A stretch of 22,817 nt of DNA. It comes from a virus. Below, piece by piece: positions 3,137-22,231 of this stretch. The position numbers and the translations under genes were made by a program. Under the pieces are notes generated by a model. It was not told the DNA's origin, ran no database searches, and was given only the letters and a program-made list of their open reading frames with translations. The stretch spans positions 1 through 22,817 of the IMG/VR virus record IMGVR_UViG_3300023174_005002. One strand, 5' to 3'. How positions within the stretch are numbered: position 1 is the stretch's first letter; the number at the start of each line of letters is the position of its first letter.

Positions 3137-3631
3137 TTATATTCCTCCGGTAGAACCAAATCCTTTATCTCCACGATCGCTGATGGCAATTTTATCGCTA
3201 TAAAGTTCATTTTCATCAACAAGTATTGGTCTAACATGAATTACTGGAAACAATATTGCTTGTGCTATTTTATCTCCGGGTTTAATCATTTGTGGATTAC
3301 GACCAACGTTATGCATAATAATTGCAACTTCACCATCATATCCAGGATCAATAACACCACCACCAACAAGTAATTCTTTTTTACTACTTACACTGCTTCT
3401 ATTTTTGATTTCCAAGCAAAATCCATGTGGTACAGCAAAACGTAAACCTGTTCGTAATTTCATACATTGATTTGGCATGATTACGATACTGCCAAGCGGC
3501 ATGTTCTTTTCGTGGTCATGATCTCCCTCCTTTACATCAGGAGAAAAGAAAAGATCTAATCCAACATCACTTGGATTTGCTCTTGTTGGTTTGAATACAT
3601 TTTCATGTGTAGTAGTATACTCTAATAACAT
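3137..3631 (-). CDS. dut: dUTP diphosphatase (trimeric dUTPase)
   Basis: A 164-residue enzyme hydrolysing dUTP to dUMP and pyrophosphate. This keeps uracil out of DNA and supplies dUMP to the ThyX encoded in the same window. All five motifs of trimeric dUTPases are visible: SDVGLDLFF (21-29), NRSSVSSKK (77-85), GGGVIDPGYDGEVAI (90-104), PGDKIAQAIL (118-127) and the C-terminal RGDKGFGSTGG (153-163). Motif I has Val in place of the usual Ala. Start chosen at the second ATG because it overlaps the upstream stop as TAATG and lies nine bases after AAGG. The ATG two codons earlier is possible but too close to the ribosome site. Confidence 0.95.
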   Translation of the reverse strand: MLLEYTTTHENVFKPTRANPSDVGLDLFFSPDVKEGDHDHEKNMPLGSIVIMPNQCMKLRTGLRFAVPHGFCLEIKNRSSVSSKKELLVGGGVIDPGYDGEVAIIMHNVGRNPQMIKPGDKIAQAILFPVIHVRPILVDENELYSDKIAISDRGDKGFGSTGGI

Positions 3632-3819
3632 TACCATTCACCTTTTTTAAATTCCATTTCGCACGTGCCAAAATTTTCATTCACATGCACAACGCGAATT
3701 ACAGATTTACATTCGCACAAAAGAGTACGAAAGTCAAGACCCATCATGTTTTCTGATACAACTTCTTTTTCTGCTTCCATGCGAGCCTTTCTAATAATAG
3801 CAAAAGCAATATCATTCAT
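3631..3819 (-). CDS. Small hypothetical protein
   Basis: A 62-residue protein without recognisable domain. It has an N-terminal amphipathic helix (AFAIIRKARMEAEKEVV) and a CEC pair in the middle. It is linked by ATGA overlap to the 59-residue gene upstream and by TAATG to dut downstream, so it appears to be a genuine operon member. Function unknown. Confidence 0.65.
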   Translation of the reverse strand: MNDIAFAIIRKARMEAEKEVVSENMMGLDFRTLLCECKSVIRVVHVNENFGTCEMEFKKGEW

Positions 3820-3995
3820 GAATTTTTCACCTTATTTTTAAGTTCCGAACACAAACGAGTAACATTCTCAATGTTTTTCATGTGTGACTGTGGATCAATA
3901 TATTCTCTTGAAGTTAAAGCATAATTATATGCTTTTAGTGTTCTATCTACATTTGTAAAAAACGCAAGCAATTCTTCTTTTAATTTCTGGTCCAT
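3816..3995 (-). CDS. Small hypothetical protein (59 aa) behind the dnaE scar
   Basis: Begins ATG GAC CAG and reads MDQKLKEELLAFFTNVDR onward. It ends in NKVKNS with a TGA that overlaps the next gene's ATG (ATGA). The ribosome site (GGGTGA, five bases before ATG) is made of the last codon and stop of the orphaned dnaE 3' end. This gene was therefore presumably coupled to the original dnaE. It is mostly helical and charged. Function unknown. Confidence 0.7.
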   Translation of the reverse strand: MDQKLKEELLAFFTNVDRTLKAYNYALTSREYIDPQSHMKNIENVTRLCSELKNKVKNS

Positions 3996-3998
3996 ACT

Positions 3999-4040
3999 TC
4001 ACCCAATAAGCTTAAATGATTTACCGATAGAACGTGTGCT
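3999..4040 (-). pseudogene. Orphaned 3' end of dnaE (scar)
   Basis: Directly after the TAG of the endonuclease gene, one frame reads S-T-R-S-I-G-K-S-F-K-L-I-G-stop. The intact DnaE at 4920 ends S-I-R-N-I-N-K-S-M-K-L-I-G-stop. Nine of 13 residues are identical and both end at the same residue, yet most shared codons differ in DNA (for example AAG CTT ATT GGG here versus AAA TTG ATT GGA in the intact gene). The remnant has no start codon of its own. It is best explained as the original dnaE terminus left behind by the insertion or replacement event that placed the endonuclease gene here. Confidence 0.75.
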
Positions 4041-4869
4041 AGATTTTATAAAAAGTAAAATTTTTACATTTTCTTTTTTCATTAAAGCACTTTCTGAATG
4101 TTGAAGAATGTATTTTATTATCCTTCAAAAATTGTTTTAGATTATAAATTTGATATTCTTTACCATCTTCATCTATAGCTTTATATTTTAAATTATATTT
4201 AGAATTTTTATTATAATTAAAACTTTTAAATTTAGAATATTTTCTTTTTAAATACAACTCAGTTTTTTCGACATCCTTATAAATCCATTCTAATATTTTA
4301 ATAGCATTAAACCCGGAATAATCAAGATGATAAGTCATATTATTTTTTGATTTAATCTTATAAAATGTTCCAGCAGATTTTTGTAAATCAACAATATTGA
4401 ATTTTACAAATACTTGTTTAATTGCTTCTAGAAACTTTTCACCACCAGTAAAAATTATTTTTATAATATTTTTATTACTAATAACTACACTGCCATCACC
4501 ATCAAAAAAACCTAATATAAATTTTCTAATATATTTTTCTGGTATATCAGGAAAATTTACGATAGATGATTTTCTTTCCATTCCTCCTAAATTAATAATA
4601 TCATGATAGATTTCTTGAGAATATATTCTTAAATAACTTTTAGGATATTTTGATTTTTTTTCTTCTTTAACAGGTCCATTAAAATCAATTGCTTTTTTAA
4701 TAGATTCTAATATATATTTGTCTTTTGTTGATTGTGTTATTCCAAAAGTTTTGGAAGAATTTGTCTTATTATTTTTTGTTATATGCCCATCAGCAAACCA
4801 AAATCCTAAAACATATGCCATTTCATCAGACCAAATTTTAAAAAAATCTTTATTATATTTATACTTCAT
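4039..4869 (-). CDS. LAGLIDADG homing endonuclease (3' side of dnaE)
   Basis: A 276-residue free-standing endonuclease that would cut an allele of a neighbouring gene lacking the insertion. Two LAGLIDADG helices are visible: YVLGFWFADG (20-29) and FILGFFDGDG (117-126). Each ends in the acidic residue that coordinates catalytic metal, so one chain forms both half-sites. The C-terminal 60 residues (from YKAIDEDGKEYQIYNLKQFL) resemble the small DNA-binding NUMOD-type modules attached to such enzymes. Base composition is more AT-rich than dnaE. The gene lies 50 bases after the dnaE stop, and its own TAG abuts the orphaned dnaE tail. AGGAG precedes the ATG within a hairpin loop. Confidence 0.93.
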   Translation of the reverse strand: MKYKYNKDFFKIWSDEMAYVLGFWFADGHITKNNKTNSSKTFGITQSTKDKYILESIKKAIDFNGPVKEEKKSKYPKSYLRIYSQEIYHDIINLGGMERKSSIVNFPDIPEKYIRKFILGFFDGDGSVVISNKNIIKIIFTGGEKFLEAIKQVFVKFNIVDLQKSAGTFYKIKSKNNMTYHLDYSGFNAIKILEWIYKDVEKTELYLKRKYSKFKSFNYNKNSKYNLKYKAIDEDGKEYQIYNLKQFLKDNKIHSSTFRKCFNEKRKCKNFTFYKI

Positions 4870-4892
4870 AAATTTACTCCTAAGTATAAATA
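4856..4892 (-). promoter_or_regulatory. Inverted repeat around endonuclease ribosome site and start
   Basis: A perfect 11-base inverted repeat (TATTTATACTT / AAGTATAAATA on the minus strand) occupies 4882-4892 and 4856-4866. The 15-base loop is exactly the Shine-Dalgarno AGGAG plus spacer plus the ATG of the endonuclease gene. In mRNA this would fold into an AU-rich hairpin presenting or constraining the initiation site. The downstream arm also contains TATAAATA in the sense orientation, the T4-type late promoter word, though AT-richness makes chance plausible. Confidence 0.5.
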
Positions 4893-4919
4893 GTAACTAT
4901 TATGCGAATATATAACACT

Positions 4920-7900
4920 TTATCCAATCAATTTCATACTTTTATTGATATTGCGAATTGAGAATCCCCATTCTTCAGAATATTCAACGCGACTTACGTA
5001 AGGATGATTTAGATGAATTACATCTTTCTTTGGATCATAACTCCAGCACTTAATTTTTGTTACGATATTTGTCTCATCAATTGCTTCAACAATCAAATAA
5101 TGCTTTCCATTTTTTGTTGTCTTCTTCTCAAGACTTTTTGGAATAAACCAACAAATACCCAATTCTTGGTCATATTCCCCAAGAGGAGGAACCATCTTTT
5201 CTGCTAGTTTCCTCTGAACTTCTTCAGAGACTATCATATTGATTGGATACACACCTGTCAACTCCAAAGTGTTGAGAATCTTTTCATCGCGTGTAAAATC
5301 ACCTTCTGCTGCATAAGTTTTAATATTCTCTACAAGATTATCTGGCTTACGAGGACGATCAACTGCAACAGCAGACCAAAAATGTTTGCCTCCTGTAAAA
5401 CGACTATCCATCAAGGATAAAAGTGCTTCACTTCTACAGAGAGCATCAACATTCTTTTTATTCAATTTGCTATAACTTACACGTGGATGGAAAAGGAACT
5501 CCTCAATTGTTTTAAACGGCCTGTGGTCAACGATCTCTTTAATTGCAGCATCACCTACACCTTTGATGGCTGAAAGCGGCTGAATCAATGTTTTTCCATC
5601 TTCGCTGATTTCCCATACTTTTCCTGACTTATTAATATCAACTCCCTGAACATTATATCCAGCAGCTTTCACGATATTTACTGCCTTTTCTTTCTTGCTA
5701 TCTGGCTGACTATCAAGGTAAGCAGCAAGCCACTCGCTTGGATAATAATTGTATAGCCAAGCACATTGAAAAGAAATAATAGAATAAGATACAGCGTGAG
5801 ACTTATTGAAACCGTATCCTGAGAAGTAAATAAACTTCTGCCACAGTTTCTCACCAACTTTTTCTCCCAACCCTTTATCTACACAACCATTAATAAACTT
5901 ATCATGTAGTTTTTCTTTAACTTCTGCTTCTTTACCTGTACCCTTCTTGGTCAATACTTTTCGGAGAGAATTGCCTTCGTCAAGAGAAATATCACGACCA
6001 AGTTTGTGAGCGAGTAGAGCAATTTGCTCTTGAAAGACAAGGTATCCATATGTTTCACTTGTTGCCTCTTTGATTAATTGATGTTCATAAACAACATCGT
6101 CTGGATTATGCTTACTTTCGGCAAATGATTTATCTACCCCGGCAGATAGAGGACCGGGACGGAAAATAGAAGTAATAGAAGAAATATCAACGATATTATT
6201 CGGCTTTACTTTCTGACAGAAGTTTTGTGCTCGACTTTCTGTGAATTGGAAAATTCCTGCCCATTTACCAGCATGGAAGATATTTTCATATACATTCTTA
6301 TCGCTCATATCCAACACATCTGGATGTAGATTCTTCATATAAAATTCTTTTACATCACTGAATGTTGGACTCTTTACTCCCTTATGACGGCGAACAATAT
6401 GTTGAATGGCTTTCTCCATCATATTCAGTGTTTCAAGACCAAGAACATCAAACTTGATAAAACCCATTGGTTCAAGGTGACGAACGTTTTGACCTTCTGC
6501 CCAAGGTGTTTGACGTACACCTTTGCTATTAATCAATGGCATCCATTGATCAAGGTTTTCACCTACAACGATACCACCAGCATGACGCGATGCTGAACGA
6601 ATTGAACCATGCAACTGTTCAATATGTGTTTTGATGTGTGGATATGTTGTAAGGAATGTTTGAAGAGACTGTGAATACTTCATTACCTCTTCAAATGTTG
6701 GCGTATAAATACCAGCAGTAATTCCATGTTCTGCTTTTGCAAGTGGTGTTGCTTCAAGCAACATTTTATTTGTTACTGCATTTACCTCTTGAAAATCAAC
6801 ACCGTAGAACTTACTAATATCCTTGATTAGTGAACGCAGCTGTAGTGTATTCCAGTTTGTAATTGGAACAACATTATTCTTACCCCATTCATCAATCAGG
6901 TTCTGTTTCAGACCCATCGCATCGCTTACGTCATAATCGATATCCGGATAATCTGTTGCTGTTTTTGAAAGGAACCGCTCAAATTGAAGACCATATTTAA
7001 TTGGATCAACCTGAGTAATTCCAAGAACATAAGATACAAGAGCACCAGCAGCAGAACCACGACCGGGACCAGTAATATAACTTTCATTTGCACGATCAGA
7101 AATCGCTTTCATTGTCAAGAAATACTTGGCAAATCCACGGTCCTTGATTACATCAAGTTCTCGTAGAAGGCGATCATGATATTCCTTATTGCTCCACTTC
7201 TTCATATCTCGCAAACCTGTTTCTGCGAGTTGATCAAGTGTTTCTTCGGCTGTTTTACCTTCTGGAAGAATAAAGTTTGGCAGACGAACAGTATTATCTG
7301 GAATAAAGCTCTCAATACGATTGAAGGCAATATCCCATGTTTCCTCAATTGTCTTGAGGACAAAATCGTCGTTATAATTTACACCACACTTGGCAGAATA
7401 CTTCTTGTATGCCTGCCACATTTCATCGCCATTCTTGGGATAAAGTGTATATTCCATGTCATCAATATGATCTGGAAGTGTAGTGTCAATTACTTTGCCA
7501 TTACCAAGGAAGCCAAGTTTCTTATAAATTTCTCGGTCCTTCCATGCACCGGGAGTTGGATAATGACTATCGCCAGTAGAAATAACTTTAATACCGAATT
7601 CTTGACAAACTCGGATTACAAGCTTATTCAATTTATGCTGTTCAAGGATACCATTCCATTGAACTTCGCCATACCAACGATCACCAAATACATCAATCAT
7701 CTTGCGTGATGTTTCACGCATAGCATTTAGTACAGCATCTTCGCCATTTTCCCAATTTTCCCAAAAATCAGTAGCATACACTCCACCAAGACAGGCAGAG
7801 GATGCAATAATACCTTCGTTATATTCCTTCAGCATTTGGTAATCAATGCGAGGAAAACGATAGTAATTCTCGTCTGAAAAACTCTTGCTGATAAGAGTAA

Positions 7901-8339
7901 AAAGATTATTCAGACCTTTCTGATTTTGTGCGAGAAGGACGAGATGAGAACGCCGATTGAGGATACTCTTTTTAGTCTTCTTTGTCTCTTCTTCGTTCTC
8001 AACAATCGCTCCTGTGATCTCCTCGTCCTCTTTCTTTGCTTTTGTTGTTTTTTCAATTTCTTCCTTATCTTTCCGCCAAGCAGCAATAGAAGGATGAAAA
8101 TACATTTCACAGCCATAGATCCCTTTGATCTGGCGTCCTTCTTTAATCATCTTCTTGATATGGATAACTTGCCCCGCTAAAGCATTCATATTGCCATGAT
8201 CCGTGATTGCAAATGCATCCAATCCATTTTCATAGGCAAAATCTAAATGTTCATCAGGCATACCAAGCCCATCATGGATACTATATCCAGTATGCGAATG
8301 AAGACCTACGAACTTGATTTTAGAAATCTTACGTTCCAT
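4920..8339 (-). CDS. dnaE: DNA polymerase III alpha subunit (DnaE type) with intact PHP domain
   Basis: A 1139-residue replicative polymerase, close to the 1160 residues of E. coli DnaE. The PHP domain (about 8-270) keeps all nine candidate metal ligands: His14, His16, Asp23, His48, Glu78, His132, Cys183, Asp257 and His259. A 3'-5' proofreading activity in the same chain is therefore likely. A Lys/Glu-rich insert spans about 90-125. The Pol III core has GPGRGSAAG (424-432), palm aspartates Asp468 and Asp470 in PDIDYD, SRHAGGIVV (584-592) and Asp631 in KFDVLGL. RPGPL, a YGYLVFQEQ segment and GYGFNKSHA follow, then a helix-hairpin-helix (IKGVGDAAI) and a C-terminal OB-like region. Its ATG lies inside the last codons of the upstream endonuclease gene, with GGAG eleven bases before. 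Both gene ends are duplicated outside the flanking endonuclease genes. Confidence 0.97.
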   Translation of the reverse strand: MERKISKIKFVGLHSHTGYSIHDGLGMPDEHLDFAYENGLDAFAITDHGNMNALAGQVIHIKKMIKEGRQIKGIYGCEMYFHPSIAAWRKDKEEIEKTTKAKKEDEEITGAIVENEEETKKTKKSILNRRSHLVLLAQNQKGLNNLFTLISKSFSDENYYRFPRIDYQMLKEYNEGIIASSACLGGVYATDFWENWENGEDAVLNAMRETSRKMIDVFGDRWYGEVQWNGILEQHKLNKLVIRVCQEFGIKVISTGDSHYPTPGAWKDREIYKKLGFLGNGKVIDTTLPDHIDDMEYTLYPKNGDEMWQAYKKYSAKCGVNYNDDFVLKTIEETWDIAFNRIESFIPDNTVRLPNFILPEGKTAEETLDQLAETGLRDMKKWSNKEYHDRLLRELDVIKDRGFAKYFLTMKAISDRANESYITGPGRGSAAGALVSYVLGITQVDPIKYGLQFERFLSKTATDYPDIDYDVSDAMGLKQNLIDEWGKNNVVPITNWNTLQLRSLIKDISKFYGVDFQEVNAVTNKMLLEATPLAKAEHGITAGIYTPTFEEVMKYSQSLQTFLTTYPHIKTHIEQLHGSIRSASRHAGGIVVGENLDQWMPLINSKGVRQTPWAEGQNVRHLEPMGFIKFDVLGLETLNMMEKAIQHIVRRHKGVKSPTFSDVKEFYMKNLHPDVLDMSDKNVYENIFHAGKWAGIFQFTESRAQNFCQKVKPNNIVDISSITSIFRPGPLSAGVDKSFAESKHNPDDVVYEHQLIKEATSETYGYLVFQEQIALLAHKLGRDISLDEGNSLRKVLTKKGTGKEAEVKEKLHDKFINGCVDKGLGEKVGEKLWQKFIYFSGYGFNKSHAVSYSIISFQCAWLYNYYPSEWLAAYLDSQPDSKKEKAVNIVKAAGYNVQGVDINKSGKVWEISEDGKTLIQPLSAIKGVGDAAIKEIVDHRPFKTIEEFLFHPRVSYSKLNKKNVDALCRSEALLSLMDSRFTGGKHFWSAVAVDRPRKPDNLVENIKTYAAEGDFTRDEKILNTLELTGVYPINMIVSEEVQRKLAEKMVPPLGEYDQELGICWFIPKSLEKKTTKNGKHYLIVEAIDETNIVTKIKCWSYDPKKDVIHLNHPYVSRVEYSEEWGFSIRNINKSMKLIG

Positions 8340-9117
8340 TCATTAAACTCCATTTTCTTTCTAATTTAGGTATTTTATAATCTTTTATTCTATTAAAAAT
8401 ACTTGTAAAAGTTTTGCCATTAAAACAAAGTTTGTAAATATTACCATGCTTCTGTATTTTTGGAAGAACAATATTTAATTCTTTTTCAAGAACTTCTTTA
8501 AACCAGAGCATCATTTTCTCTGTGCCCAATATAGCAGAATTTATATATTGATATTTATCCTTATTTATAGTTTTATAAATTGTCCCATCACCATCTAAGT
8601 AACCAACAAAAAAAGACAATATTAAATCTATGTCGTTTAATTTAGGTGGTTGAAGAATTAAAGATTTTTTTGGTATTATGTTAAAATTTTTCCTTAAATC
8701 TTCATATATCTTACGAGAACTTATCGATAAAACTGCAGCACCAGAATAATTTTTGATATCACCAGAATATTCAATATCTCGTTTTAGTTTATTTAAATGT
8801 TCCTTATCTCCCATTTGCAAACAAATATAAGTTCTATAGTCTCTTTCTCTTACATTTCCGTCAGCCGCTAAAAAGCCAGCCCAATAACAATTTAAAACAT
8901 TTGGAGTTTCAAAAAAATTCTCATTTATATTATATCGTCTTTTGTGGGATAGCTTGTTTTTTCCAATACCTCTTTTATTATATAAAGATAATTTTCTAAC
9001 CTGATTAACGACAGATTCAACTGTTCTTTCTAATTTAGAAGAAATTTCTTTATAAGATATTATTTCATAATTTTCTTTTAGATAATTATTTTCTTGTTCC
9101 GTCCATCTTTTTCCCAT
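8329..9117 (-). CDS. LAGLIDADG homing endonuclease (5' side of dnaE) with HTH N-terminus
   Basis: A 262-residue endonuclease. Residues 1-45 (KRWTEQENNYLKENY, then a second and third helix ending VVNQVRKL) look like a Myb/SANT-type helix-turn-helix for DNA binding. Two LAGLIDADG helices follow: WAGFLAADG (79-87) and FFVGYLDGDG (169-178). The catalytic acidic positions are present, so the protein looks intact. It is only distantly similar to the endonuclease on the other side of dnaE. Its TAA lies 11 bases inside dnaE, the last residues NGT sharing bases with the dnaE start. AGGAGA precedes the ATG inside a hairpin loop. Confidence 0.92.
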   Translation of the reverse strand: MGKRWTEQENNYLKENYEIISYKEISSKLERTVESVVNQVRKLSLYNKRGIGKNKLSHKRRYNINENFFETPNVLNCYWAGFLAADGNVRERDYRTYICLQMGDKEHLNKLKRDIEYSGDIKNYSGAAVLSISSRKIYEDLRKNFNIIPKKSLILQPPKLNDIDLILSFFVGYLDGDGTIYKTINKDKYQYINSAILGTEKMMLWFKEVLEKELNIVLPKIQKHGNIYKLCFNGKTFTSIFNRIKDYKIPKLERKWSLMNGT

Positions 9118-9155
9118 ACATTTCTCTCCTACTATATTTAGGTGTTGAAATGTAT
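9116..9155 (-). promoter_or_regulatory. Inverted repeat over endonuclease start codon
   Basis: A perfect 9-base inverted repeat on the minus strand (ATACATTTC at 9155-9147 and GAAATGTAT at 9124-9116). The 22-base loop contains the AGGAGA ribosome site. The downstream arm ends in the first two bases of the ATG. Folding would pair part of the start codon and restrict access to the ribosome site. Confidence 0.4.
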
Positions 9156-9178
9156 TTTATCACAAAAGATAAATTGAT

Positions 9179-9463
9179 TTAACTAATCACTTCACAATCA
9201 ACTTCATCTTCATAGAAATAGTATTCTTTTCCATCAACTTGCGAATACCAAATATAGCCATTATCGTTTTCAGTTGAACCTTTCTTGAAAATATGACTAT
9301 GTTTTTCAACTTTGGTGATGATGCCAAATGTATTTTTAAGGCGAAGGAGAAGGGGGAGGCGAAGGCGAAGGTGAAGGCGAAGGCGAAGGCGAGGGCGAGG
9401 GTTAGGGCGAGGGTGAGGGTGAATATCTTTTAAAAGAACAAGATCACCAACTTGGTATTTCAT
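9179..9463 (-). CDS. Small SH3/KOW-like protein with a hexamer-repeat insertion
   Basis: A 94-residue protein. The outer parts (MKYQVGDLVLLKD and NTFGIITKVEKHSHIF, then a YYFYEDEVD end) look like a compact beta-barrel of the type found in many short phage proteins. Residues 15-43 are instead a run of alternating His/Arg/Leu and Pro/Leu encoded by about 14 copies of a degenerate hexamer. The reading frame is kept because the unit is six bases. The first 23 bases are almost identical to the start of the gene at 9733, so these two genes probably derive from one another. The ribosome site AGGTGA is created at the junction with the orphaned dnaE start. Function unknown; whether the repeat-bearing protein folds is uncertain. 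Confidence 0.65.
   Translation of the reverse strand: MKYQVGDLVLLKDIHPHPRPNPRPRLRLRLHLRLRLPLLLRLKNTFGIITKVEKHSHIFKKGSTENDNGYIWYSQVDGKEYYFYEDEVDCEVIS
9338..9421 (-). repeat. Degenerate hexanucleotide tandem repeat, about 14 units
   Basis: On the plus strand, 14 consecutive six-base units of the form AAGGCG, AAGGTG, AGGGCG, AGGGTG and one AGGGTT fill 84 bases. They split into an AAGG-type block followed by an AGGG-type block. The tract is strongly strand-asymmetric (G/A versus C/T) and GC-rich against AT-rich surroundings. It lies in frame inside a small gene. Confidence 0.9.
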
Positions 9464-9466
9464 GTA

Positions 9467-9538
9467 TCACCTAATAGAAAAGCCCGAATGTGCATGGAGT
9501 CCAACAAACTTAATCTTGGACACTTTACGTTCAGTCAT
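9467..9538 (-). pseudogene. Orphaned 5' end of dnaE (23-codon scar with ribosome site)
   Basis: An ATG preceded by AGAGG opens a 23-codon frame reading MTERKVSKIKFVGLHAHSGF then S-I-R-stop. The intact DnaE begins MERKISKIKFVGLHSHTGYS then I. Sixteen of the first 21 DnaE residues match after the extra Thr. At DNA level almost every shared codon uses a different synonymous base (GTT GGA CTC CAT here versus GTA GGT CTT CAT in the intact gene). Similarity stops after the Ile, where AGG TGA follows and supplies the ribosome site of the next gene. This is best read as the resident dnaE start left behind when the endonuclease-linked copy took over. Confidence 0.85.
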
Positions 9539-9550
9539 TTAAAACCTCTT

Positions 9551-9733
9551 TTATTTTTGAACAGGGAAATGTTTTGTTTCAGGATGTTTTTTAAGCATCC
9601 AATCTAATTCATAAGTCCAAAGCTTCATACTTGCATCTCCACATTTGAGAACAATGTATTTACGCTTTTCTCTACTTACAATTGTCCAAAGTCGGTTATA
9701 GTGCAATATTAGATCACCAACTTGATATTTCAT
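9551..9733 (-). CDS. Small SH3-like phage protein
   Basis: A 60-residue protein starting MKYQVGDLILHYNRLWTIV, a predicted all-beta barrel with no catalytic motif. Its N-terminus matches that of the repeat-bearing protein at 9463 in protein and in DNA (22 of the first 23 bases), so the two are probably paralogues. The start overlaps the upstream stop as ATGA, and both neighbours are of similar size and fold. Function unknown. Confidence 0.7.
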   Translation of the reverse strand: MKYQVGDLILHYNRLWTIVSREKRKYIVLKCGDASMKLWTYELDWMLKKHPETKHFPVQK

Positions 9734-10308: not shown

Positions 10309-11238
10309 TTACAAATCTTCTTTATCTACACCAACCGGACTCCATTCGTGATATTTAAAAAATTTTGGTTTATATATTGCTTTTGCGTTTGGTGAATTCA
10401 TATGTTCTAAGTAAGTTTTCCACGAATCCACACGGGAATACCATGCAGTTTGGCCCACATTGTTGCCCTCAAGTGTAGCACACCCGAACACCTTGTCAAG
10501 CGAGAACCAACGGGCACTGTATTGTTCATCAGTTGGTATTCTTTCTGCTTCAATTCTACGGTTTGTTTCTTTATCAAAGACAACATTTCTATATTTTCCA
10601 GTACCTTCTCGGATCACTCTGCGAAACTTCTTAAAATCTTCTTTATCAAAAGTAAATGGTAAATATTCACCATCTCTTACAGTTTTTCCCTCGTGCTCCA
10701 TATAAAAATTCTTTGGAGAACTTATCAAACTTCTATTTTGATATACTGAGTCTAGCGATACCAATCCATATGGAAATGAAACAAAATATTTATCGGGCAC
10801 AACCCATGAACTTATCATCTTGGAAATATGAAACGCTCTTAATGAACCATAGACAACACTCCATGCCAAACAATCTCTTTTGTCACGATCTTTTGGATGA
10901 ATAGGAACATAATATATTGAAGTATCTCGTCTTTGTTCGTCTATGTTCTTTTCCGCAAAAAGAGTTTGTTTGTAAGAACCATATTCATATATATGATCGC
11001 CTATACGGTCTCTTAAAATAGGGTGCATTTCACGATGTGCAACAATCCATATGGTTTCACACCCTGCATAAGTACATTGCATTATAGCGTGTTCTATTGC
11101 TGTTAATTTATAACCTACTGGCATCATACAATCATGCCAAGGCATATCAAAATCAAGTTTTTCACCTGCAACTGGAATTATACCTGCAAGGTGAAACTTA
11201 GTTATATCTTTCTTTCCATCTTCTATATCAGAGAGCAT
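10309..11238 (-). CDS. Nucleotidyltransferase-like (GT-A type) phage protein
   Basis: A 309-residue protein. Residues 18-70 (LAGIIPVAGEK, a PWHDCMMPVGYKLTAIEHAI segment, then AGCETIWIVAHREM) follow the pattern of sugar-nucleotidyltransferase cores. These have a G-x-I-P-x-A-G strand-loop, a Pro-rich 'PVGYKLTAIE' helix and a strand predicting other nucleotide contacts. The later part (DCLAWSVVYGSLRAF; VPDKYFVSFPYGLV) would fit the second half of that fold. I know of similar unnamed proteins in large phages but cannot prove the reaction. The start overlaps the upstream gene by 11 bases. It could supply an activated sugar for the glycosyltransferase at 15818, which is conjecture. Confidence 0.6.
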   Translation of the reverse strand: MLSDIEDGKKDITKFHLAGIIPVAGEKLDFDMPWHDCMMPVGYKLTAIEHAIMQCTYAGCETIWIVAHREMHPILRDRIGDHIYEYGSYKQTLFAEKNIDEQRRDTSIYYVPIHPKDRDKRDCLAWSVVYGSLRAFHISKMISSWVVPDKYFVSFPYGLVSLDSVYQNRSLISSPKNFYMEHEGKTVRDGEYLPFTFDKEDFKKFRRVIREGTGKYRNVVFDKETNRRIEAERIPTDEQYSARWFSLDKVFGCATLEGNNVGQTAWYSRVDSWKTYLEHMNSPNAKAIYKPKFFKYHEWSPVGVDKEDL

Positions 11239-12231: not shown

Positions 12232-12915
12232 TCACGACTTTCTTACTTCATTATAAGCACCCATAGTCTCTGGAAAAAGTTGCTGAATTATTTTTAACAT
12301 AGCATTAGCAACTTGAACTATTTCCCATTGTGCTCCTTCGTGAGAACGTAATTCAATAAACTTGAGAATATTATTCAAATTTGCTGAAGCATAGTATTCC
12401 GTATAAAGATTTTGTGGCAATACTCCTCTTGCTTGCTCACGACAAACTCCAGATTCCATTAATTTATTATAGATCTCTAGACTTTGTTGGTGATGTTCTG
12501 AAATGAGCTGATTAGCATCTTTACCGTCAATAACTGGATTAATTAGTTCATTTTCGTTACTTGCTTGACGATTGTTTTTGTGTTGTGTACGAAATTGGTT
12601 TGGTTGATAAAATTCCATTTTTTCAGCAGTATAGCGACGAGAAATTTCGTTATATGACCAAGTGCGATGGCGGTGATGCTGTGAACGAATAAATAATGGA
12701 ACCTTTACACGAAAGGTTACAAAACAATGTTCTAGCGTTGATGTATGTTTGTGTTTAATAAGATAACGAATCAGTTTCCTATCTTTATCATTAAGTTCTT
12801 CTTGATGAAGGCCAAAGCTTACACGCGCACTATTGACAATCGTTAGATCATTTCCAACACTATCAACTAATTCTACTTTACCAATACTATCACCATACAG
12901 TTCAATGCTTTTCAT
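12232..12915 (-). CDS. thyX: Flavin-dependent thymidylate synthase ThyX
   Basis: A 227-residue enzyme making dTMP from dUMP with FAD, NADPH and methylene-tetrahydrofolate. The ThyX signature R-H-R-x7-S is present as Arg82-His83-Arg84 to Ser92 (RHRTWSYNEIS). Other family segments are visible, including STLEHCFVTFRVKVPLFIRSQ, EYYASANLNNILKFIELR and a final AMLKIIQQLFPE. Length is normal for the family, so the gene looks intact. GGAG lies eight bases before the ATG, inside the end of the upstream endonuclease gene, and the two genes overlap by 14 bases. Together with dUTPase and the B12-dependent reductase it gives the phage a folate-sparing route to thymidine nucleotides. Confidence 0.97.
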   Translation of the reverse strand: MKSIELYGDSIGKVELVDSVGNDLTIVNSARVSFGLHQEELNDKDRKLIRYLIKHKHTSTLEHCFVTFRVKVPLFIRSQHHRHRTWSYNEISRRYTAEKMEFYQPNQFRTQHKNNRQASNENELINPVIDGKDANQLISEHHQQSLEIYNKLMESGVCREQARGVLPQNLYTEYYASANLNNILKFIELRSHEGAQWEIVQVANAMLKIIQQLFPETMGAYNEVRKS

Positions 12916-13423
12916 GATTGTTCTCCATTTTATTCACAAGCTTTTTCATCCAAGTATATAATTTTTCTATCTCTTGTAAGGAAGCGTCATTTTTTATTCT
13001 ATTTGCTTTGTATGAAATACAAACGACATTATCTTTTGTATATCCCTTTTTAGAATCGATTCTATCAATAGAAGGCGAATTGTCAGCAGCAATTCCACAG
13101 GATTTTTCCAGAACAATTCCAAGAACTGGACATATTTCTGGTATTTTTATGTCTTCAATAGTTAAATTGAATTCTAAATTTGAATTTTTAGCACGACTTC
13201 TTGCTCTTGATAGAATGGCTTTTTCTATATTATTATTGCGCCATTTTGCTGTTTTATCACTATGATATTTTTTAAATTCTTCGCTTTCTCTTGATTTATA
13301 AGTTTGTCTGGCTGTTTCATTATAACATTCTATACATATAGAACGTTTATGATTCTTGCTGTCGCCTCTTGAATAAAAATCTTCTAGTTCTTTTTCTTTT
13401 TTACAGCGGCGACACTTCTTCAT
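12902..13423 (-). CDS. HNH-type (homing) endonuclease with N-terminal zinc ribbon
   Basis: A 173-residue putative endonuclease. Residues 4-33 carry a C-R-R-C ... C-I-E-C zinc knuckle with the DFYSR element typical of phage endonuclease zinc ribbons. The C-terminal half has CPVLGIVLE, then PSIDRIDSKKGYTKDN, V-V-C-I-S and N-R-I-K-N-D. This is the 'S-x-D-R-I-D-x-x-x-G-Y-x-x-x-N-V' core of a large group of phage HNH-like nucleases. It shares this core with the protein at 20086. Its reading frame ends within thyX, much as the LAGLIDADG gene ends within dnaE. It is probably a free-standing homing endonuclease targeting the thyX neighbourhood. Confidence 0.8.
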   Translation of the reverse strand: MKKCRRCKKEKELEDFYSRGDSKNHKRSICIECYNETARQTYKSRESEEFKKYHSDKTAKWRNNNIEKAILSRARSRAKNSNLEFNLTIEDIKIPEICPVLGIVLEKSCGIAADNSPSIDRIDSKKGYTKDNVVCISYKANRIKNDASLQEIEKLYTWMKKLVNKMENNHEKH

Positions 13424-19455: not shown

Positions 19456-19480
19456 AAGTCTAACAGGTTTTCAGCCGGCG

Positions 19481-20086
19481 TCAAGTGCCATTCAAGCAGG
19501 CATGTTTTTCAACCTTTTTAATATTATATTCCGTTACTAACTTACACATTTGTATAAAATATTCTTCATCAAACTTGTTTTTCATTATATTTAAATCTTT
19601 TAAAATCCACTGGATATTTTCTTTACAATATGCTTTTTTACTGTCAATTCTATCAATAGAGGCTTTTTCTATAGTCATAGATGTTCCGGTTAAAGCACAA
19701 ATTCCTTTTTGTTCTTTCCATTTATTATCACAATCTTCAATTGTAATTTTAAAATCAATATTTCTCAATCTTGCGCCTGTTTTTATGTGTGTAAAATAGC
19801 TTGAACTAATTTCTCCAAAACCCTTCCAATTAGAATTTTTATCTTTATCAGTATTCTTCATAGAACACTTAAAACATTTTTTAGTTATTCCATTTTCTAA
19901 TTGGTAACAATCAACTAACTTTTCTTGCTCGCATAAAATACAAACACAGAGATATTTTAATCTATGTCTGTCTTTTGTATTTGAACTTGGAGTTTGAACT
20001 CTTTTACAAATATTATCTAATAATTTCCAATTTCCAAATAAATGTCCTATTTCATATTTTTTATCATATCTTGAAAATTTACCCAT
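19481..20086 (-). CDS. HNH-type homing endonuclease (behind nrdJ)
   Basis: A 201-residue endonuclease. The N-terminal part (YEIGHLFGNWKLLDNI) resembles the strand-rich DNA-binding opening of phage HNH/AP2-type proteins. It is followed by a four-cysteine knuckle (C-V-C-I-L-C ... C-F-K-C). The nuclease core is CALTGTSM, SIDRIDSKKAYCKEN, IQWILKDLN and MKN, the same S-x-D-R-I-D-S-K-K-x-Y motif as the protein at 13423, so the two are distant paralogues. It lies 75 bases behind the reductase stop. Its initiation site is locked in a long inverted repeat, and its last codons may incorporate a scar of the nrdJ 3' end. Confidence 0.85.
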   Translation of the reverse strand: MGKFSRYDKKYEIGHLFGNWKLLDNICKRVQTPSSNTKDRHRLKYLCVCILCEQEKLVDCYQLENGITKKCFKCSMKNTDKDKNSNWKGFGEISSSYFTHIKTGARLRNIDFKITIEDCDNKWKEQKGICALTGTSMTIEKASIDRIDSKKAYCKENIQWILKDLNIMKNKFDEEYFIQMCKLVTEYNIKKVEKHACLNGT

Positions 20087-20161: not shown

Positions 20162-22231
20162 TTATCTGATTTCACAAGCTCCATTGCTACAAGCAACCTC
20201 GCCAGACAAATTGGTATAATCCTGATCTTCTCTTACCATATCTATATCAACATCTACTAATTGATCCATTCTTTGTTTATATTCAGCTTCACCTATATCC
20301 TGGAATGGGGCCTGATGATAAGTGTGGTTAGATAAAGGTAGAAGTGAAATAGCAGCATAACTGTCTTTATTTTTCCACATCCAGTCAGTAACTTCTCCCC
20401 ACTCACCGTCACGAACAGAAACAGTAATAGAAACATTGTGTGTATTGTCTCCACGACGATGACCACCTTGAATCCAATCAAGATATACTTTTTTCATACG
20501 TTCAAGCTGTTCAAGAGCACTTTCTTTTCTTGTAATAGCTCCTTCTGGTGCTCGCTGTGGTAATACAAGAATTCCATTGTTCTTATTGAATACATCGTCT
20601 TCAAGAAGTTCTGGGTGGAACATTTTGAGATAACCATACATTGTTTCTGTCTTTAGAAGGCGCATACGGCGTAAATAGAACTCATTATGCCATGCATGAA
20701 TACCTGATGAACAACCTAGAACACAAGAAGTTGTACCACTTGGTTTTACAGTTGTAACACGGGCTGCTTTATTTACACCAACAAGTTTAGCAACTCTTTC
20801 GTTTTCTTTTGTTGCCGCTTCTGCTGCTGCAGCCATATCAAGTGCTAATACTTTTCCACTTGCAATACCGGTCATACCAATACCAAGTAGAGCTTCTTTT
20901 TCTGTTGTTTTACGCCAAACATCACGAAGATAATGGAAATCAGTATAAGAAGCTTGTAGTGTTCCAATGAACGCTGCAGCTTTTACACGATCTTCATAAT
21001 CTTTTTGATCTGTAATGTCTGAAGCATTGATTTCACAAAGATTACAGAATTGGTTTGTTCTCAAACCAATTTCACCACATGGATTTGTACCCCAATCTGG
21101 ATTATTTGTCCAGAAAATACCTGGCTCACCAGCTTTGCTTTCTTCTGTGATTTTAAGAATACGTTCAAAGTCTTTCTTGTTTCTCATCTTGTGACGGACG
21201 ATAACAACACTATTATTGGCACGACCACGCTGTTCTTGAACATAAAACCATGGAACAATACCGTTATCTAAAAAGAATGGAATATCATGTTCGCCAACAT
21301 CAGCCTCAACTGTGCGAATACCATAAGCTGGGTCATTGTAGGCTATTTTAAGGCGTTTATAAGTGGTGTTTGTAGCCTCATCTACTGTACGGACTTCAAG
21401 CTTAACTTCATTACCAAATTGATCGCGCTTTGTGAGCGTAACGGGTTCATAACTTGATACTTTAAAGTTACTCTTGCATGTAAGCATTGCTTCATCATCA
21501 ATATCAAATAGTGAAATCATTGCTGAACGACGAATACCACCTGCAAGGACAGCATCAGCTAAATGACAAAGAATGTCATGAATCTGGACTGAACGTAACT
21601 GTTCTCCACTTTCTACACTATCAAGAATACCACGTACATTATCTAATGAACGCTTTAATGGTTCTGGACCTGGAGCTTTACCACCACCAGTTTTGATTGG
21701 TGTTCCTTTGGCACGAATTGATGAATAATCAAAACGAATCTTTGGTGAATTTGGCTGCATGTATGATTTCATCAATACTTTTACAGCATCAGCCCAACCT
21801 TCAATACTATCGCCAACAAGGAATTTCTTTTCACCTTTTGATGGTTTTGTTACTGGAGGAAGTTTTTCAATATGCTTTTTCTGTACTGAATAACCTACAC
21901 CACAACCGGCAAGCAATAGGAACATAGTTTCACTAAAACTATGAACACTATCAATATGTTGGAAAGAACAGTTATAAATACGTGAGTTGTTTACTTCAAT
22001 CGCTTTTCCACCGAATTGCATTGAACGCATTGATGGAAGAACTTTTTTATCATAAACAAACTTATACGCTTCTTCAATCTGATCCTTTAGATCAGGGAAT
22101 TTAGCAATATGCATTGCTTTGTTGCGATCAACAAGTTCAACCCAATTCTCACGACGACCAAGTTTCTCATCAAACTTTGCATATCGTGAAAATACTGTTA
22201 CATCTGATAATATTTTGCTTGCTTTGTCCAT
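20162..22231 (-). CDS. nrdJ: Class II (adenosylcobalamin-dependent) ribonucleotide reductase
   Basis: A 689-residue single-chain reductase converting ribonucleotides to deoxyribonucleotides using B12. It resembles the monomeric L. leichmannii enzyme (739 residues). Key residues are visible: Cys88 in IYNCSF, the radical cysteine Cys385 and Glu387 in NPCGE, and Cys396 eleven residues later (FCNLCE), matching Cys119, Cys408, Glu410 and Cys419 of that enzyme. The C-terminal shuttle pair is C-S-N-G-A-C before EIR. Between TCKS (about 252) and QRGRANNSV (about 334) there is a roughly 75-residue beta-rich insertion where related enzymes have a short link. Start taken at the second ATG, seven bases after GGGAG. 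The helicase stop overlaps the first ATG. Confidence 0.95.
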   Translation of the reverse strand: MDKASKILSDVTVFSRYAKFDEKLGRRENWVELVDRNKAMHIAKFPDLKDQIEEAYKFVYDKKVLPSMRSMQFGGKAIEVNNSRIYNCSFQHIDSVHSFSETMFLLLAGCGVGYSVQKKHIEKLPPVTKPSKGEKKFLVGDSIEGWADAVKVLMKSYMQPNSPKIRFDYSSIRAKGTPIKTGGGKAPGPEPLKRSLDNVRGILDSVESGEQLRSVQIHDILCHLADAVLAGGIRRSAMISLFDIDDEAMLTCKSNFKVSSYEPVTLTKRDQFGNEVKLEVRTVDEATNTTYKRLKIAYNDPAYGIRTVEADVGEHDIPFFLDNGIVPWFYVQEQRGRANNSVVIVRHKMRNKKDFERILKITEESKAGEPGIFWTNNPDWGTNPCGEIGLRTNQFCNLCEINASDITDQKDYEDRVKAAAFIGTLQASYTDFHYLRDVWRKTTEKEALLGIGMTGIASGKVLALDMAAAAEAATKENERVAKLVGVNKAARVTTVKPSGTTSCVLGCSSGIHAWHNEFYLRRMRLLKTETMYGYLKMFHPELLEDDVFNKNNGILVLPQRAPEGAITRKESALEQLERMKKVYLDWIQGGHRRGDNTHNVSITVSVRDGEWGEVTDWMWKNKDSYAAISLLPLSNHTYHQAPFQDIGEAEYKQRMDQLVDVDIDMVREDQDYTNLSGEVACSNGACEIR

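Follow-up and report, generated by a model that had tools for sequence, protein, structure and literature searches.

Gene ends of foreign origin have been described from fungal mitochondria, where mobile open reading frames (mORFs) bring foreign C-termini into atp6, atp9, cox2, and nad3 of Allomyces and Glomus; the native end matches close relatives and the inserted end does not, e.g., 91% versus 64% for atp6 of Glomus (PMC3630166). In T4-like phages, according to the sections available of PMC2988022, seg and mob are free-standing homing endonuclease genes (HEGs) that lie beside or within genes of DNA metabolism and move by break repair with co-conversion. In T4 gene 60, a 50-nt insert next to a homing endonuclease is bypassed by the ribosome, and a protective role against the nuclease has been proposed for it (PMC5009743). 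The present study concerns the gene of DNA polymerase III alpha, dnaE, in the IMG/VR virus record IMGVR_UViG_3300023174_005002; the whole stretch analysed, of 22.8 kb, is referred to as the window (W among its relatives, which carry L numbers). This gene has very probably been invaded twice, after codon 22 and 13 codons before its end, by separate homing cassettes. The features of the locus are as follows:

9473..9538, minus strand: remnant of the native dnaE start, 22 codons followed by AGG TGA (92% DNA identity to L005 over 9473-9568)
9179..9463, minus strand: small cargo or neighbour gene (MKYQVGDL...)
8329..9117, minus strand: HEGn, a free-standing LAGLIDADG endonuclease that has two motifs and is extended at its N-terminus (Pfam LAGLIDADG_3, E 9e-7; PHROG 4645, E 1e-37; PDB 2dch, E 2.5e-7)
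4920..8339, minus strand: intact dnaE, 1139 aa (Pfam and PHROG domains)
8112..8339, minus strand: recoded tract of foreign origin, about 228 nt, at the 5' end of the working dnaE (50-80% DNA identity per 30-nt bin to L003 and L005)
4920..5009, minus strand: foreign tract of about 90 nt at the 3' end of the working dnaE (56-76% identity to L003 versus 97% before the tract)
4039..4869, minus strand: HEGc, a second LAGLIDADG endonuclease (Pfam LAGLIDADG_3, E 1e-13; PHROG 4645, E 3e-37)
3999..4040, minus strand: remnant of the native dnaE end, 13 codons and a stop (continuous with the native dnaE ends in L003, L005, L007, and L009)

A preceding reading made from the letters only (hereafter the sequence-only reading) had given the order as start remnant, small gene, LAGLIDADG gene, complete dnaE, LAGLIDADG gene, and end remnant, which was correct to the base. 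Positions 9538-9467 (minus strand) translate into MTERKVSKIKFVGLHAHSGFSI followed by R and a stop, and the counterpart at the intact start, 8339, is MERKISKIKFVGLHSHTGYSI; the 3' remnant translates into STRSIGKSFKLIG and a stop, its counterpart at the working end being SIRNINKSMKLIG and a stop. The 5' remnant was recovered when the record was searched with DnaE by tblastn (76% over 21 aa, E 1.6e-5), and the protein match of the 3' remnant is by itself borderline (it scored 41 when 1188 open reading frames, ORFs, were scanned). It had also been claimed that the protein ends are alike with changed codons, and this was upheld, since of the 16 residues that the remnant and working starts have in common, about 11 are encoded by unlike codons. 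Both endonucleases exceed the cut-off of Pfam PF14528, match PHROG 4645, and have their two motifs in one chain with the terminal acidic residue (WAGFLAADG and VGYLDGDG in HEGn; LGFWFADG and LGFFDGDG in HEGc). Their kinship is distant, HEGc being about 30% identical in amino acids to homologues of HEGn. The final 11 nt of HEGn are shared with the dnaE start, and the stop codon of HEGc abuts the native 3' remnant. The dnaE ORF is complete from start to end and needs no splicing to be read whole, which rules out a group I intron or an intein.

A DnaE scan of viral contigs led to nine close loci, and in L005 dnaE is uninterrupted. Its start and end run on from both remnants of the window: window 3168-4044 aligns across the end of the gene, and the counterparts of the two remnants are joined directly by the window dnaE body (4963-8274). 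DNA identity of the 5' scar is 94% to this insert-free locus and 92-98% across L003, L004, L005, L007, and L011. From this continuity it follows that the remnants are the native ends and that the inserts are precise, and window 9538-9473 and 4040-3999 are confirmed as the native dnaE ends. The alignment with insert-free relatives that the sequence-only reading had called for thus gave the predicted picture, with dnaE of L005 going straight from a 9538-like start to a 3999-like stop.

Eight contigs (W, L003, L004, L007, L011, L172, L173, and L175) carry the 5' element and a clean scar, and four of these (L003, L004, L007, and L011) were recorded as lacking the 3' element, which is found only in the window. 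The contig of L011 ends inside dnaE, and L008, from a shared sample and probably its remainder, is without the 3' element. Decayed-looking scars are present in L006 and L169, L009 has a leader of the PD-(D/E)xK-like type described below and no scar, and no scars at dnaE were found among 78 wider relatives (about 60% amino acid identity). The dnaE body of the window falls in one clade with the bodies of the relatives carrying only the 5' element. In viral contigs, no close relatives of HEGc were confirmed, and those of HEGn were L011 and one 36% match only, L007 having been reached through the DnaE search instead. Because the relatives carry none or one of the elements, and because of the tract mapping given below, two separate insertions are concluded. 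Of the two models left standing by the sequence-only reading, that of two insertions each with a recoded terminus therefore agrees with both occupancy and tract limits, and that of a single 5.4-kb cassette does not agree with the 5' element standing alone in four relatives. The latter model, in which an endonuclease-polymerase-endonuclease cassette swapped the middle of the resident dnaE, corresponds to the HEG-islands, i.e., essential phage genes lying between HEGs, that are described in the sections available of PMC10448857. Co-mobilisation would be possible, as the dnaE bodies of W and L003 are 94-97% identical versus 75-80% for the neighbour genes. However, L003, L004, and L007 have one element without the other, the foreign stretches are limited to both ends of a dnaE body native to its clade, and the exchange between W and L011 moved HEGn and the N-terminal tract without the body; replacement by such a cassette in a single event is very unlikely.

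Outside the two foreign tracts, most bins of dnaE are 95-100% identical between W and L003. The tract of the GIY-YIG type (L003, L004) stops near nt 180, and L003 is then L005-like (100% in the next bin). Since the tracts extend beyond the insertion points, they agree with co-conversion after a break. The protein of the 5' tract of W is 67% identical to most of its own clade and 59-68% to marine relatives, and that of the body 90-98% to its own clade versus about 60% to marine relatives. In the tract tree the clade seen in the body was rejected (approximately unbiased test, p 0.003), and the tract of L003 and L004 (type B) grouped with L069 with support of 99/98, while the body of L069 lies elsewhere, with L173; no source nearer to type B than the L069 lineage was found. 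This tree has 79 columns only, and its remaining placements are weak. It had been suggested that trees might reveal a different origin of DnaE, and a foreign placement was indeed obtained for the tract, the body being native to the clade.

The clearest evidence that a nuclease and a replacement start travel together comes from the following unit:

8101..9220, minus strand: recently mobile unit of HEGn and foreign dnaE codons 1-79 (99-100% identical to L011 in a 40-nt bin profile and a per-gene table)

Around this unit, DNA identity between W and L011 is 45-90% in the small gene, 80-95% in the dnaE body, and about 75-80% in the outer flanks. The nuclease and leader of L173 and L169 are mostly 95-100% identical, with a drop to 80% just past the 10-nt insert discussed below. 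An in-place partial duplication of the dnaE ends, followed by HEG insertion between the copies and drift, would explain why the protein ends are alike although the codons differ. It has nevertheless only the slimmest chance of being correct: the foreign copy is the working one, the 5' scar is 92-98% identical in DNA to relatives and the working ends about 50-80%, and the working start is 100% alike in W and L011 despite divergent bodies. The duplication is thereby disfavoured at the 5' end by the W-L011 identity profile and at the 3' end by the L003 tract mapping. The small gene is 65% identical in amino acids to that of L011 despite 100% in the adjoining HEG, and it occurs behind the scar with each of the three endonuclease types. 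As it was left behind, a new nuclease can apparently enter an occupied site. Within the small gene, a repetitive CTTCGCCTTCGCC-type stretch (window 9340-9430; rich in Pro, Arg, and Leu) differs in length among relatives, and in L003 (6087-6749) the place of the small gene, with the dnaE scar on one side and the GIY-YIG gene on the other, is taken by a 220-aa ORF without family match.

The same dnaE codon holds three nucleases, i.e., LAGLIDADG in W, L007, and L011, GIY-YIG in L003 and L004, and a PD-(D/E)xK-like one (Pfam Phage_endo_I) in the L173 group, and all three families always stand upstream of a foreign dnaE start. Occupation of the codon-22 site appears to turn over, with nuclease types replacing one another. 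This bears on the possibility of ordinary homologous exchange between phages, with the HEGs as bystanders at recombination boundaries. Mosaic genes are common, and in L004 the dnaE end is slightly altered with no scar, a cytidylyltransferase-like gene (10596-11036) following directly. Simple exchange, however, does not leave orphan gene ends, and neither the three families at one codon nor the repetition of the arrangement on four genes (see below) would be expected from it; it is thus most improbable.

The starts associated with the PD-(D/E)xK-like nuclease (type C) are located as follows:

L173:5609-5726: type C dnaE start
L169:3245-3362, minus strand: type C dnaE start
L172:12419-12536: type C dnaE start
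L006/L009/L010:5955-6072: type C dnaE start

They are out of frame, and were missed by the N-terminal search and found by a DNA pattern scan. Mismatches to the native 5' site number 10 of 24 bp in window-type starts and 5 of 24 in the GIY-YIG type; type C retains 24 of 25 bp of the native CATTCGGGCTTTTCTATTTTTGATGG, as read by eye with 10 nt set aside. These 10 nt, TAATGGAACC or TAATGGTGCC, put a stop into the reading frame and move what follows to the +1 frame. The insert is present in L173, L169, L172, L175, L006, L009, and L010, in the first four of which the HEG adjoins it, and is absent from the window. The leader and insert are predicted to fold into a 19-bp hairpin (z -3.6 to -4.8), the end of the stem coinciding exactly with the end of the insert. 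The insert and the leader covary at two compensatory pairs of the outer stem (C-G to U-A and A-U to U-A), and 29 of 29 pairs are kept in all five distinct sequences; control structures slid by 1-3 columns had 0 compensatory changes. The covariation is modest, as these five sequences are related. The reading is UCC UAA, with the stop after the take-off codon, and then the 10-nt gap; the frames suit a +1 shift equally. Because of the in-frame stop and the insert, expression of type C dnaE would need ribosome bypass or a frameshift, and the candidates are a 10-nt bypass, whose product would read GFS-IFDG like that of L005, and a +1 frameshift, expected to yield GFS-NGT-IFDG.

The same layout was found on other genes. 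The relevant features of nrdJ in the window are:

20162..20347, minus strand: foreign 3' tract of nrdJ, ending in EIR instead of VVT (68-77% to L184 versus about 90% upstream)
19481..20086, minus strand: EndoVII/HNH-type endonuclease between the replaced and native nrdJ ends (PHROG 3322/1035; absent from the five relatives L184-L188)
19460..19486, minus strand: short stretch left from the native 3' end of nrdJ plus what follows it, ACTTGACGCCGGCTGAAAACC (near-identical sequence directly after nrdJ in the five relatives)

Here the final 186 nt of the gene are foreign and are followed by the nuclease and then the native 3' end, and judging from the sequence nrdJ is a second case of replacement at the 3' end (C-type layout) within the window. 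In the phage of L006 (L193:2269-2796), a LAGLIDADG gene of 145 aa stands behind thyX, and after it come 26 codons left over from the native thyX 3' end, also a C-type layout. A purA-like gene of a marine phage (L059:8593-9364) has an N-type layout, with a native-looking 5' remnant of 57 codons, an EndoVII/HNH-like gene, and a new start. With these the arrangement is known on four genes, dnaE, nrdJ, thyX, and purA. In the systematic scar scan the permuted-end null was inflated by homologous neighbour genes, and individual matches alone were used. In the window itself, an EndoVII/HNH gene overlaps the start of thyX (12232-13423). The ThyX of the window is 97% identical to that of the phage of L172 (DnaE only about 60%) and 73-76% to that of the phage of L011, which implies that thyX itself was exchanged. 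In L010 (8080-9262), dnaE is broken at about residue 702 by an apparent split intein whose halves flank a free-standing endonuclease gene, the 'fractured gene' arrangement.

Each of the two dnaE cassettes pairs a free-standing LAGLIDADG gene with a foreign and divergent version of the dnaE end situated beyond the cut. In the proposed working, the endonuclease would cut the empty dnaE site of a co-infecting phage, with cuts expected near TTTTCTATT/TTTGATGG at the 5' site and near TTCAGT/ACACG at the 3' site of empty alleles, and repair would copy the endonuclease and the foreign terminus, the co-conversion tract continuing into the gene. The native end would stay outside as a dead remnant, and the polymerase would be kept whole by the end that the cassette carries. 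Self-cutting should be blocked because the working end is spelled differently, at 10 of 24 bp around the 5' site, and in type C self-immunity could come from the 10-nt insertion in the site, tolerated by hairpin-guided bypass or a +1 frameshift. The structure of the cassettes, the limits of the tracts, and the recent joint transfer of the 5' unit are observed directly in the DNA. Several points weigh against the reading of two homing cassettes. The 3' element was seen in a single genome, but there the DNA shows both remnant and tract clearly. The boundaries of the element are layered, HEGn having moved without the small gene. The similarity of the dnaE bodies of W and L003 above that of their neighbour genes means exchange beyond the two cassettes, and larger dnaE stretches are also exchanged between phages. 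Donors were not found for the 3' element and tract or for the window-type (type A) 5' tract, the best match of the latter outside the close clade being 65%; a genome-contig scan with DnaE of L005 gave just relatives of about 30%, in metagenome-assembled genomes of Clostridia, and no help with the donor. Finally, cleavage, homing, resistance of the recoded ends, and expression are deduced from sequence. Whether the lineage carries general end-swapping homing cassettes, which would invade essential genes from either end, supply a new terminus, and gain self-immunity by recoding or by a hairpin-skipped insertion, is a broader proposal with even odds.

If the reading of two homing cassettes is true, the rescue-type homing drive of engineers would be an old natural strategy in phages, and homing could rewrite the ends of a core replication gene without intron, intein, or gene splitting. 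Mosaic gene termini would be explained, and such termini would mislead DnaE phylogenies. The loci would also offer comparative material on endonuclease site choice, displacement at one codon, and the origin of bypass sequences such as the one in T4 gene 60.

In the literature searched, with most subscription papers outside its scope, neither a phage case of duplicated recoded gene ends nor an N-terminal case was found. The sequence-only reading had regarded the arrangement as not known, and this holds for phages in that literature and not for fungal mitochondria, which have the C-terminal version (PMC3630166). As in mORFs, a LAGLIDADG or GIY-YIG ORF stands in an essential gene with a diverged, in-frame gene end, and the native end is left outside, downstream in mORFs (PMC3630166). 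However, mORFs are C-terminal and mitochondrial, whereas the dnaE case belongs to a phage, involves the N-terminus too, hence both ends of one gene, and shows nuclease replacement at one site and cargo. As both dnaE ends are used and the record is viral, the locus is a variant of the mORF-type hybrid gene rather than a member. Like seg and mob of T4-like phages, the HEGs of the window are free-standing, lie in a gene of DNA metabolism, and have tracts of the kind expected from co-conversion; in the T4-like cases, as far as the available sections of PMC2988022 go, the gene is split into two chains (nrdA, gene 43, and topoisomerase gene 39/60) and no replacement terminus or scar is described. 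The type C insert resembles that of T4 gene 60 (PMC5009743) in lying in a gene beside a homing endonuclease, with a stop after the take-off codon and a stem-loop, but it is 10 nt long, has a larger hairpin, and rides on a replacement gene start. HEG-islands similarly have an essential gene between HEGs of different classes replacing one another, with duplicated or recoded gene ends not reported in the sections available (PMC10448857). In the engineered HomeR drives, a homing insert is likewise placed in an essential polymerase gene with a re-coded end downstream of the cut (PMC7968924). HomeR is a synthetic CRISPR drive in Drosophila, while the dnaE case arose in nature, its nucleases being proteins and its ends having diverged naturally. 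The 'gene-drive' analogy of the sequence-only reading is apt for the architecture, with cutting and resistance as its predicted parts.

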